NCBI GenBank assembly: GCA_040221055.1
Contig: JAVJVN010000014.1
Coordinates: forward strand, 177,001 to 241,000
Origin: Rhodothermales bacterium
GTDB lineage: Bacteria; Bacteroidota; Rhodothermia; Rhodothermales; UBA10348
Reading direction: 5' to 3'
DNA length: 64,000 nt
The stretch's first letter is position 1. Each line of letters begins with the position of its first letter. A program made the position numbers and the translations under genes. Of this stretch, positions 22,236-25,693 are shown one piece after another. The notes beneath the pieces were generated by a model. That model did no database searches, was not told the DNA's origin, and saw only the letters and a program-made list of their open reading frames with translations.

Positions 22236-22303
22236 GATGCGGGGTTGGAAGTAAAAGTTGGCAATTCGTACAATCTAAGCCCAAGCTCGAACGATGCAAA
22301 CCC

Positions 22304-22666
22304 ATGCCCATCGACCCTATTCCGTTCACACTGGTCCTTGAGGGCCTGATCTTTCTCGTTGCCGCGTGGATTTCCGCGCGGTTTCCGGCCCGGAAAATCA
22401 ATCTGACGTACGGGTACCGGACGAAAGCCTCCATGGCCAGCCAGGAACGGTGGGATTTTGCCCAGGCCTATGCGCGCCGAGAGATGACCCGCGGCGGACT
22501 GTACCTCATTGCCGGTGGGTTGGTGCTTGCGACGCTGCCCATCCCCGGTCAGATCGTGCTGGACCTGATCGTTGTACTTGGCGGGACCGTCTGGGTGTGT
22601 GTATGGCTGTACCGCAAGACCGAGGCGGCCATATCGGCCCGGTTCGACAGCGGGCACGCGTCCTAG
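22304..22666 (+). CDS. SdpI/YhfL family membrane protein
   Basis: A 120-residue membrane protein with three hydrophobic segments. The conserved segment INLTYGYRTKASMASQERW followed by DFAQAYA (about residues 32-57) is typical of the SdpI-like family, whose Bacillus founder gives immunity to a killing factor; most homologues have no known role. The stop codon TAG lies inside the CTAG that borders the MITE-like element, so insertion may have changed the original C-terminus. Confidence 0.8.
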   Translation: MPIDPIPFTLVLEGLIFLVAAWISARFPARKINLTYGYRTKASMASQERWDFAQAYARREMTRGGLYLIAGGLVLATLPIPGQIVLDLIVVLGGTVWVCVWLYRKTEAAISARFDSGHAS

Positions 22667-22955
22667 AAGGCTGTTGAAGAAGTGGAGGGCCCCTCGAGCG
22701 AGGGTCTTACGAGGCGCAGCGGGCCGACATCGGCCCGGGGAAGGGCGACGACGCGATGCAATTGTATCGTGGAGGAGCCATGACAAAGTATCCGCCCGTA
22801 ACCCCCTCGCTCCCAGAGGGTTCGGGCGGCATGACATCATCTTCGGTGTTGTTCCTCCTATGAGTAGCTATGGCTACGCAAACGTCGGAACGCCTTGAAT
22901 CAGATGTCATGGCGCTCCGAACGAGGGGTCCTCAACTTTTTCAACAGCCTTCTAG
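22663..22955. mobile_element. MITE-like non-autonomous element flanked by CTAG
   Basis: A 285-bp element (22667-22951) with terminal inverted repeats matching at 27 of 31 positions. Both ends begin AAGGCTGTTGAA when read inward. Each end is directly bordered by CTAG (22663-22666 and 22952-22955), consistent with a 4-bp target duplication such as the YTAR sites used by IS5-type elements. It has no transposase gene. Inside are two hairpins (22721-22736 and 22792-22829) and a 27-codon frame. It lies between the ends of two convergent genes. Confidence 0.75.
22780..22863 (+). CDS. Possible 27-residue peptide within the MITE-like element
   Basis: An ATG at 22780 follows a strong GGAGGAG ribosome-binding sequence by two bases, unusual in this window where such sites are scarce. 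The frame codes MTKYPPVTPSLPEG, then SGGMTSSSVLFLL, and stops at TGA 22861. I recognise nothing in it; it may be the remnant of a parent element's gene or chance. Confidence 0.2.
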   Translation: MTKYPPVTPSLPEGSGGMTSSSVLFLL

Positions 22956-22964
22956 CGGGCCGCG

Positions 22965-25496
22965 TCAACGGCCCTGCGGCTCCTCCCGGTTCAACTGGAT
23001 GATGTCCGCGTTCCAGTTCGTCTCGCCCAGGAGGTGCTCGACGAAATACTCGGCCCGCAGCCAGAACCAGTAGTCGGACATGTTGCCGTAGCCGTGGCGC
23101 TGGCCAGGGAACAGGAAGAAGTCGAACCGCTTGTTCGCCTTTATGAGCGCATCGGCCATGCGAATGGTGGCGGCCGGGTGCACGTTGTTGTCCTCGTCGC
23201 TCGTGACCAGGAGTAGACGCCCTTTCAGGTTCTTGGCCAATTCCTGATTCGTATCGATATCGTACTTGAAGCTCACATCACCCGAATCGCTCACCACTTC
23301 CTCGACGCCGTGGTGGTGCTCCGACCAGTTCCGGTTGTAGATGGTGTTGTCGTGGTTGCCCGACGATGATACCGCCACCTTGAAGAAGTCCGGATAGACG
23401 AGCATGGCTGCCGTCGACATGAAACCGCCACCGGAGTGGCCGTAAATACCCACGCGGTCCAGGTCGATCCAGTCGTGCCGGTCGGCCAGTTGTTCAGCGG
23501 CCGCCTTCTTGTCGGCCAGCCCGTAGTCGCGGAGGTTGCCATAGCCGTAGGTGTGGTACCACTTGGAGCGATCGGGATGCCCGCCCCGGTTGCCCACCGT
23601 GACCACGATCATCCCGAACTGCGCCAGGGCCGTCTCGTAGGGCGCGGTCGTGAACATTTTGGCCACGGCTTCCGTCTGGGGGCCGGGGTACACGTATTCC
23701 ACAATGGGATACGTGCGCGTGGAGTCGAAATCAAACGGCTTGTACATGACGCCGTACAGGTCGGTAATGCCGTCGGCGGCCTTCACCGTGTAGGGTTCCG
23801 GGAAGCGGAATCCGGCCGCGAACAGGCTCGAGAAGTCGGCGGTCTCCAGGTCGACAACCGTGCGACCGCTGGCGTCCAGAACGGTGGACCGTGGGACCTG
23901 GTCCACACGGGAGAAATTGGTGACGAAATAACGCCCTGATTCAGAGGCCGATGAGCGGTGATCCCGATCACCCGGATTCAACAGGCGCAGGTCCGATCCG
24001 TCAAGCCCCACGCGGTACAGATGTTGGTAGTACGGGTCTTCGCCAGACTCCCGCGCATTGGCCTGGAAGAAGACATGTCCCCGGTCTTCGTCCACACGCT
24101 GGACACCCCGGACCGACCAGGGTCCCCTCGTGAGCCGGTTCCGCAGCGTTCCGTCGGCGGCGTAGCGGTACAGATGGGCCCATCCGTCGCGTTCCGACCA
24201 CCAGATGAAGTCGCCATTGGAGAGCAGGTCCGGGGTTCGAACGTCGATGTAGGTATTGAAGCGTTCCTCAAGGACCACGTCAACCTGTCCGGACGCCGCG
24301 TCCGCGCGCAACAGGTCCACGCGCTTGTGGTCCCGGCTCATCCGGTACAAGAGGAACGAGCCCGGGTCGTTGGTCAGCCACTGCGCGGAGAACGGACGCT
24401 CGTCGCCAGCATAGCGGAACTGGGGCGCTGAGAACACGGAGACTTCCTGATCGACCCACAGGCTGTCCTGAAGCGCCCAGACCGAGTCGGCCACCACACT
24501 GCCCACTTCGAGGTGATACTGGGCCACGTTCTCCTCACCCGGCAGTCCGTACTTGTAGGTCTCAAGCTCAGGGCGCTCGTTCCCGACCGAATGGATGATC
24601 CAGAGGTCGCCCACCTTCCGGACGTCCATGCGCATGACGGTGAAATACTCCGATCCAGGCGACCATACAATCGGCGCGCGCTTGCGGTCATCCTTCTTCT
24701 TCTCCACCTCCTGCGCCGTGTCGCCGTGGTGCTGCCCCAGCCGCCACGTGCTGGCCACGTAGGAGAAGAACTCCTCGCCGTCATGGGTGAGCTGGATTTC
24801 TTCCACTTCTACCTTCTTTTCGGCTTCATCCGCCTTGTCCCCGGTCTTTCCGCGTCGGGCATCGAGGATGCGGACGTAATCCTCGCCGCTCATCTTGTAC
24901 AGATTCTCGTGCCGCGCGAACAGCACCCACGCGCCGTCGGGTGACACGGAGGCCCACGACGGGTGGTTGTCCGGCTTTTCCGGATCGGTCAATTCGCGGA
25001 GGACCTGTGCGCGACGGTCATACTCGAAGTAGAAGACCTTGTCGCGCATCTCCTTTTTCTCGGTGACCGTGGAATCCTGCTGGGTATTGCCGCGCTCTGC
25101 TTCCTCCGACGGAACCTCTTCCTTCTGCGACGACGTCACTTCGAAACGGATGGTGTTTGCATCCACGAATTTCAGATTCCGGATAGGGAGATGCCGGGCT
25201 TCGAACGGGTCCCGTACGATCCGGGTGATTTCCGCCGCCATCCAATCGCGGTCGAAGAGTTCCGACTTGGTACCGCGAACCGGATCCACCAGGCGCCAGT
25301 GCGTTCCGGTAGCATCGTCCCACTCATACCAGAACGACTCGCCGCCCTCTATCCAGCGCGGATTCACGCTGGTCGAGTGGACGAGGTCGCTCATCCGGTA
25401 GGGGGCGAACCGGGCAGCCAGGTCCCAATTGACGGTCTGGGCGGTGACGGGCGTTGAAAGGGCCAGCAGGATACCGGCAAGCAGGAGGCGGCGCAT
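22965..25496 (-). CDS. S9 family peptidase (dipeptidyl peptidase IV-like), exported
   Basis: An 843-residue serine peptidase with a signal peptide (MRRLLLAGILLALSTPVTAQ), an N-terminal DPP-IV beta-propeller and a C-terminal alpha/beta-hydrolase domain. The nucleophile is in GIYGHSGGGF, the Asp in TSDEDNNVHP and the His in GQRHGYG. It would cut dipeptides from peptide N-termini in the periplasm. A paralogue lies at 55172-57478. A charged insertion (about 330-350) rich in Lys and Glu interrupts the propeller. The longer upstream frame to 25685 is not used, because the signal peptide starts at 25496. Confidence 0.92.
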   Translation of the reverse strand: MRRLLLAGILLALSTPVTAQTVNWDLAARFAPYRMSDLVHSTSVNPRWIEGGESFWYEWDDATGTHWRLVDPVRGTKSELFDRDWMAAEITRIVRDPFEARHLPIRNLKFVDANTIRFEVTSSQKEEVPSEEAERGNTQQDSTVTEKKEMRDKVFYFEYDRRAQVLRELTDPEKPDNHPSWASVSPDGAWVLFARHENLYKMSGEDYVRILDARRGKTGDKADEAEKKVEVEEIQLTHDGEEFFSYVASTWRLGQHHGDTAQEVEKKKDDRKRAPIVWSPGSEYFTVMRMDVRKVGDLWIIHSVGNERPELETYKYGLPGEENVAQYHLEVGSVVADSVWALQDSLWVDQEVSVFSAPQFRYAGDERPFSAQWLTNDPGSFLLYRMSRDHKRVDLLRADAASGQVDVVLEERFNTYIDVRTPDLLSNGDFIWWSERDGWAHLYRYAADGTLRNRLTRGPWSVRGVQRVDEDRGHVFFQANARESGEDPYYQHLYRVGLDGSDLRLLNPGDRDHRSSASESGRYFVTNFSRVDQVPRSTVLDASGRTVVDLETADFSSLFAAGFRFPEPYTVKAADGITDLYGVMYKPFDFDSTRTYPIVEYVYPGPQTEAVAKMFTTAPYETALAQFGMIVVTVGNRGGHPDRSKWYHTYGYGNLRDYGLADKKAAAEQLADRHDWIDLDRVGIYGHSGGGFMSTAAMLVYPDFFKVAVSSSGNHDNTIYNRNWSEHHHGVEEVVSDSGDVSFKYDIDTNQELAKNLKGRLLLVTSDEDNNVHPAATIRMADALIKANKRFDFFLFPGQRHGYGNMSDYWFWLRAEYFVEHLLGETNWNADIIQLNREEPQGR

Positions 25497-25637
25497 GGGG
25501 ATCGGGTATGTATCTTTGAGAGCAATGGATAATAAGACCCGCGAACGCTTCCGGAAACTTTCGCGTCTTCGGAAGTGACGCGGCGCTCGGAGTGAATGAA
25601 AAACAGGGTATTGATTTTTACCCTGTCCCATACGTGA

Positions 25638-25653
25638 TTTAACCAAGGCTAAA
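25638..25653. promoter_or_regulatory. Operator-like 16-mer, copy 2
   Basis: TTTAACCAAGGCTAAA matches copy 1 (15657-15672) at 14 of 16 positions. It lies 41-56 bp upstream of the ATG at 25694, in an AT-rich promoter-like stretch of the 197-bp gap shared with the divergent S9 peptidase gene. Extended by one base on each side it reads ATTTA-N8-TAAAT. Confidence 0.45.
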
Positions 25654-25693
25654 TAGTACGTTGCATCTGTTTGTTGATCAGTCAATTATTACC

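Follow-up and report, generated by a model that had tools for sequence, protein, structure and literature searches.

A probable IS5-type MITE whose two-armed palindrome is conserved between Bacteroidota and Gemmatimonadota

The window, i.e. the whole 64-kb stretch of Rhodothermales DNA analysed here, contains two convergent genes encoding an SdpI-like protein (plus strand) and an S9 peptidase (minus strand, ending at 22965), with an inverted-repeat element between CTAG sites at 22663-22955 lying between them (Table 1). The earlier sequence-only reading had described a MITE-like element of 285 bp (22667-22951) with 27 of 31 terminal positions matching, CTAG directly on both sides, internal hairpins and no transposase; the count of matches is exact and the other features were all found as described. 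When taken as 34 nt (22663-22696 and 22922-22955), the ends are complementary at 31 positions (91%). In a scan of the window for 31-nt arm pairs 200-400 bp apart, every pair with at least 25 matches fell at this one site, which is the sole such structure in the window, and the terminal repeats are therefore not due to chance. The plus strand folds at -172.8 kcal/mol compared with a shuffled mean of -105.5 (z = -11.3) and the minus strand has a z of -10.4. The element is short, has no transposase gene and carries terminal inverted repeats, as expected of a MITE.

Table 1 Features of the element and of its neighbouring genes (window coordinates).
Feature	Position	Strand	Basis and remarks
SdpI-like gene (context only)	22304..22666	+	PF13630, E 2.5e-12; TAG stop inside the left CTAG
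Left target tetramer CTAG	22663..22666	+	Sequence; Y-TA-G here among the 59 two-ended copies tallied
Left terminal inverted repeat, closing stem of the fold (GAAGGCTGTTGAAGAAGTGGAGGGCCCCTC)	22666..22695	+	First 16-20 nt common to IS5-family ends
Left hairpin arm	22696..22812	+	Inverted repeat I2; helices 2-4, two-sided changes in most
Right hairpin arm	22820..22922	+	Used for covariance model R1
Right terminal inverted repeat	22923..22952	-	
Right target tetramer CTAG	22952..22955	+	Sequence; flank tally
S9 peptidase gene, convergent (context only)	22965..25685	-	PF00930 and PF00326

The stop codon of the SdpI-like gene is indeed supplied by the TAG of the left CTAG. The accompanying suggestion, that the insertion may have altered the end of that protein, is unlikely because a CTAG target already contains a TAG stop, and the protein end is probably unchanged. 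Among the four genomes of the genus, the SdpI-like gene at this locus (window 22236-22964) is present only in the window's own genome (G000). In the three congeners (G001, G002 and G003) the CDGSH and S9 peptidase genes adjoin, with both the SdpI-like gene and the element missing. A relative without the insertion, expected to have a single CTAG, was therefore found as regards the absence of the element, but not as a clean empty site, as the SdpI-like gene is gone too. Joining of the flanks at the collected copy loci likewise revealed no empty sites.

Copies in the genus and in the Gemmatimonadota

The search for further copies, which the sequence-only reading had proposed, was productive. The window's own genome (3.32 Mb, 99.5% complete) carries full copies at two further places, C12:143155-143431 and C4:201342-201616 (90-92% identical), together with one shorter, diverged copy (C15:78702-78917) and some ten half elements, referred to as solo ends. 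The full copy on contig C12 has inserted into a solo end, at its TA (C12:143428-143456; L002:1774-1802). Solo ends were observed at gene ends at nine loci of this genome, and several of them provide a TAG stop although the remaining element is gone. At one Gemmatimonadota locus (L139) two opposite ends are fused, as a deletion of the palindrome would leave them.

Searches of 100 relatives revealed diverged full copies in the congeners G002 and G003; G001 has a fragment, and a single weak relative was seen in another member of the family (G019). A scan for the end pattern in the contigs of 84,980 species returned 95 stretches, nearly all from Gemmatimonadota MAGs; as one end of every Gemmatimonadota stretch had to carry YTAG to be picked up by the scan, that end, and only that one, is biased. 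Several of these stretches are full-length homologues with 63-68% identity (BLAST E down to 8e-31). With the right-arm covariance model, copies were found in 29 of 298 sampled Gemmatimonadota genomes and in 4 of 394 genomes sampled from the phylum of the window, where the four positive genomes all belong to the same family as the window. No match was obtained when plasmid and phage DNA were searched with the element, and nothing was found in viral contigs using two end patterns and the transposase of locus L101 (described below).

The element family is modular. One-armed versions of about 160 bp, consisting of the ends and the right arm only, occur in G019, G002 and G003 (L029, L041 and L088, respectively), and versions of 60-105 bp with little beyond the ends were seen at four loci (L077, L086, L107 and L135). 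In G002 numerous contigs end within AAGCGTGTTGAA repeats (e.g. C3, C21, C48 and C75, at about position 127-142), which suggests that the element or its IS is abundant there and that the assembly was broken by the repeat. The family is apparently undescribed, as no description was found in Rfam or in mainly open-access papers. Its host range is wide and its two-armed palindrome conserved. Like NEMIS/Correia, ERIC and Nezha, it is an intergenic repeat that folds into a robust structure, but each of these is described in one bacterial group (PMC3733652) whereas the present family has full-length homologues in two phyla.

Conservation of the fold

The consensus fold from RNAalifold, based on 24 copies that are related, such that the cell counts are not independent events, has 79 pairs and forms a three-way junction of the left arm, the right arm and a closing stem made by the ends; 96.9% of all cells pair. 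Two-sided compensatory changes across phyla are present at 46 of the 79 pairs (shuffles: 31.3, sd 2.0, 0 of 500 as high), with a covariation score of 0.428 versus 0.142. The terminal repeats covary too, as exemplified by AAGGCTG/CAGCCTT, AAGCGTG/CACGCTT and AAGCCCG/CGGGCTT. The palindrome is conserved pair by pair between the Bacteroidota and the Gemmatimonadota while the sequence drifts by about 35%.

On the 71 pairs that are predicted from both strands, the residual mismatches, given strand, comprise 17 G·T and 15 A·C cells. If an RNA from one strand were under selection, G·U cells should outnumber A·C cells. The near symmetry of the mismatches argues that the fold is kept at the DNA level and not as a one-strand RNA. 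Template switching has been proposed to create and maintain hairpins (PMC8794818), and upkeep at the DNA level would be by arm-to-arm template switching, which is the preferred explanation, or by selection on a DNA hairpin. Under such selection the two-armed palindrome would not be a by-product of arm-copying, but a hairpin or cruciform of about 290 nt required in its own right for mobility or persistence, for example by being recognised as folded single-stranded DNA; this we consider unlikely.

It is very doubtful that the element works as a structured RNA (a regulatory RNA or a bidirectional terminator, for instance) that is mobile by chance and selected for its RNA fold. Dense covariation across phyla and the location between convergent genes would be compatible with such an RNA, as would the plus strand folding 20 kcal/mol better in the window copy. 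An RNA reading of this strand difference was rejected, however, as the mismatches are symmetric on pairs predicted from both strands, with no G·U excess, and several Gemmatimonadota copies show little strand advantage or one in the opposite direction. In addition, no Rfam match was obtained up to E 1, and neither a promoter nor a terminator-like site was found inside the element.

Target sites, ends and candidate transposases

Flanks were tallied for 59 two-ended copies, of which 34 have TA intact on both sides. The outer target base is Y in 65 of the 68 intact ends and the inner bases are nearly fixed, with G on the left in 33 and C on the right in 32 of the 34 copies. The expectation that an IS5-type element duplicates a YTAR target such as CTAG holds for the target itself, but a 4-bp repeat does not follow from the flanks. 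Equal tetramers are found in 21 of the 34 copies, 19 of these being the palindrome CTAG, while the other 13 copies have unequal tetramers (TTAG/CTAG, CTAG/CTAA, GTAG/CTAG) that do not fit a plain 4-bp IS5 duplication and so count against an IS5-type element. Unequal tetramers with a fixed inner base argue for a 2-bp TA repeat, with the G and C being part of the element, and judging from the flanks the repeated target may be only TA. Repeats of 2 and 4 bp are both possible, since two IS copies have equal flanks (CTAA/CTAA and GTAG/GTAG) and arm-to-arm correction could equalise the inner bases.

YTAR is strongly avoided in the window, with 19 sites (CTAG 6, TTAG 4, CTAA 4, TTAA 5) compared with 131 for GTAG; based on crude gene calls, three of the 19 are gene stops and three are intergenic. 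At the ends of the collected copies an in-frame TAG follows at least 150 open codons at the junction in 33 of 84 cases, versus 14 and 12 in the other two frames, and 7 of 31 copies have an in-frame TAG at both ends, versus 0 and 0. A first impression that most copies supply gene stops was reduced after this reading-frame control, and perhaps a quarter of the ends supply a true gene stop. As the element begins with G after the TA, a TAA or TAG stop would become TAG and the protein would be unchanged.

The window's own genome has no match to DDE_Tnp_1 (PF01609), DDE_3 (PF13358) or the IS1182 model, and no autonomous partner with GAAGGCTGTTGAA ends was found in it. The same holds for five Gemmatimonadota genomes, where all end pairs span 262-432 bp. 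These absences, together with that of a clean empty site, speak against an IS5-type origin. A full-length IS with related ends was found in the congener G002 (L101), where a 465-aa transposase lies between TTTAAAAGCGTGTTGAA ends in an element of about 1.47 kb. These ends match the AAGCGTGTTGAA variant of the MITE ends in G002 and G003, and the AAGCGTG variant has its ends in common with this autonomous element. In the congener G001 the L101 transposase has just a partial relative, which lacks ends.

The L101 transposase scores 176.8 on NF033581 (IS5_4) and 262.8 on the IS1182 model (cut-off 270); it falls between the two models, which is a further point against an IS5 assignment. When compared with plasmids by tblastn it matched 314 records, and the annotated ones among the matches listed were all named 'IS5 family'. 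Of 15 loci inspected, 12 have clear ends of one general form; for plasmid elements named 'IS5 family' these are CTAG-CAGGCTG(T/C)TGAA. The IS from Pandoraea ends in CTAG-CAGGCTGTTGAAATACC on both sides, that from Methylobacterium (L303) in CTAG-CAGGCTGCTGAAGAAGT and that from Geobacillus in TAGAAGGCCGGTGAA, compared with CTAG-AAGGCTGTTGAAGAAGT for the MITE, and up to 15 of 16 nt are alike. Three of the plasmid transposases pass NF033581 with 273-316 bits (cut-off 140), whereas the Geobacillus transposase passes neither this nor the IS1182 model. The likeness between the MITE and the plasmid elements is confined to the ends, the interior being unrelated. The ends in common with the plasmid elements and with the G002 IS, and the Y at the outer target base, support the IS5 connection first suggested from sequence, though no active partner for the copies with GAAGGCTG ends turned up in the genomes searched.

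Several other candidates were set aside. The TA repeat had pointed to an IS630 partner; this was rejected because PF13358 is absent from G000, G001 and G003 and represented by one fragment in G002. A solo end in the Nitrospirae (L174) resembled an IS but adjoins a pilM-like gene, and the ORFs beside other solo ends are ordinary genes. Apart from these candidates, a second type of IS, of the IS1182 family (NF033551, 358.8 bits), was observed in G003 (contig C49; L098/L213), with ends CTAG-GAGTCCGTCGGACTT, also at CTAG.

The intermediate score of the L101 transposase on the IS1182 model would suit structure-dependent transposition as proposed for IS1272 (IS1182 family), which replaces inverted repeats (stem-loops) without duplication (PMC5678879). 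The TA or CTAG would then be part of the element palindrome and, both being palindromic, the flanks alone are compatible with this. Such a mode is nevertheless highly improbable, as the relatives with the closest ends pass the IS5 and not the IS1182 model, the IS flanks CTAA/CTAA and GTAG/GTAG look duplicated, and the target of the nested C12 copy keeps its TAG.

Movement by a tyrosine (HUH) transposase of the RAYT/TIRYT kind, with long inverted repeats spreading as solo and paired families, is extremely unlikely. TIRYTs with long TIRs and families of TIR repeats have been described (PMC3733652), and in the present family solo ends are common and the repeats fold strongly. REP/BIME and TIRYT-associated repeats are similarly dispersed palindromes near gene ends, in solo and paired units, but they depend on a tyrosine transposase and have one-sided GTAG or CGTC tags. 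No ORF with an HUH motif or RAYT-like match was found in 1.26 Mb of loci around the MITE ends (motif search and one approximate query), and the ends match those of IS5-family IS, in which the target is YTAR and the flanks are symmetric, whereas insertion of an HUH element leaves no repeat of the target. An ancestral intergenic region in which inverted repeats arose in place would agree with the failure to find a clean empty site, but is practically excluded by near-identical copies at unrelated loci and by the absence of the element from the locus in the three congeners.

Proposed mobilisation and significance

The element is very probably a non-autonomous IS5-type MITE of 287 bp, with G22666 and C22952 as its outermost bases and CTAG (YTAR) as its target. 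The reasons are its dispersed copies, the ends resembling those of the IS5 family, the IS in G002, the bias for Y at the target, the fold and the nested copy on contig C12; the MITE reading of 22663-22955 is supported.

Of the described elements, the IS5-family IS matching NCBIfam NF033581 (ISAtc5-like) have ends of the form [C/A/G]AGGCTG(T/C)TGAA at YTAR-type sites but, unlike the MITE, encode a transposase and measure 1.26-1.55 kb. MITEPsy1 of Pseudomonas syringae, suspected to be of the IS5 type and derived from ISPsy2, is likewise non-autonomous with a target of CTAG or YTAA; it differs in its 100-bp length, 18-nt repeats, restriction to one genomospecies and observed 4-bp duplication, and no conserved two-armed interior is described (PMC3189936). 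The IS1182-driven, ISMac2-related MITEs of Methanosarcina (160-169 bp) are listed as derived from a related DDE family, but they are shorter, have their partner in the same genome and are listed with repeats of 4 or 0 bp (PMC3852290).

Based on the sequence comparisons, mobilisation would occur in trans. An IS5-family DDE transposase would bind the 16-20 bp ends (GAAGGCTGTTGAAGAAGT) and insert the element at YTAR sites, with a repeat of the TA at least. Only the ends are common to the element and the IS; the interior of the element is a pair of hairpin arms, so that the whole sequence can fold as a three-way junction. Because YTAR is very rare in the window's own genome, the insertions that survive would be intergenic and in many cases placed at a stop codon, where the element's own G would restore the TAG. 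Solo ends would be remnants of decay, plausibly arising by deletion of the palindrome.

The element is ordinary in kind, and the conservation of its fold at the DNA level across phyla is the part that deserves specialist attention. In a GC-rich genome the target preference often hits and restores stop codons, such that insertion can be nearly harmless. Near-complete Watson-Crick pairing, kept in two phyla by way of two-sided changes and with G·T and A·C left over in equal measure, fits what homogenisation of the DNA by template switching would produce (PMC8794818) and not what RNA selection would. The family carries a warning that dense 'compensatory' covariation is not by itself proof of a functional RNA, and it offers a natural test of how long palindromes persist in genomes.
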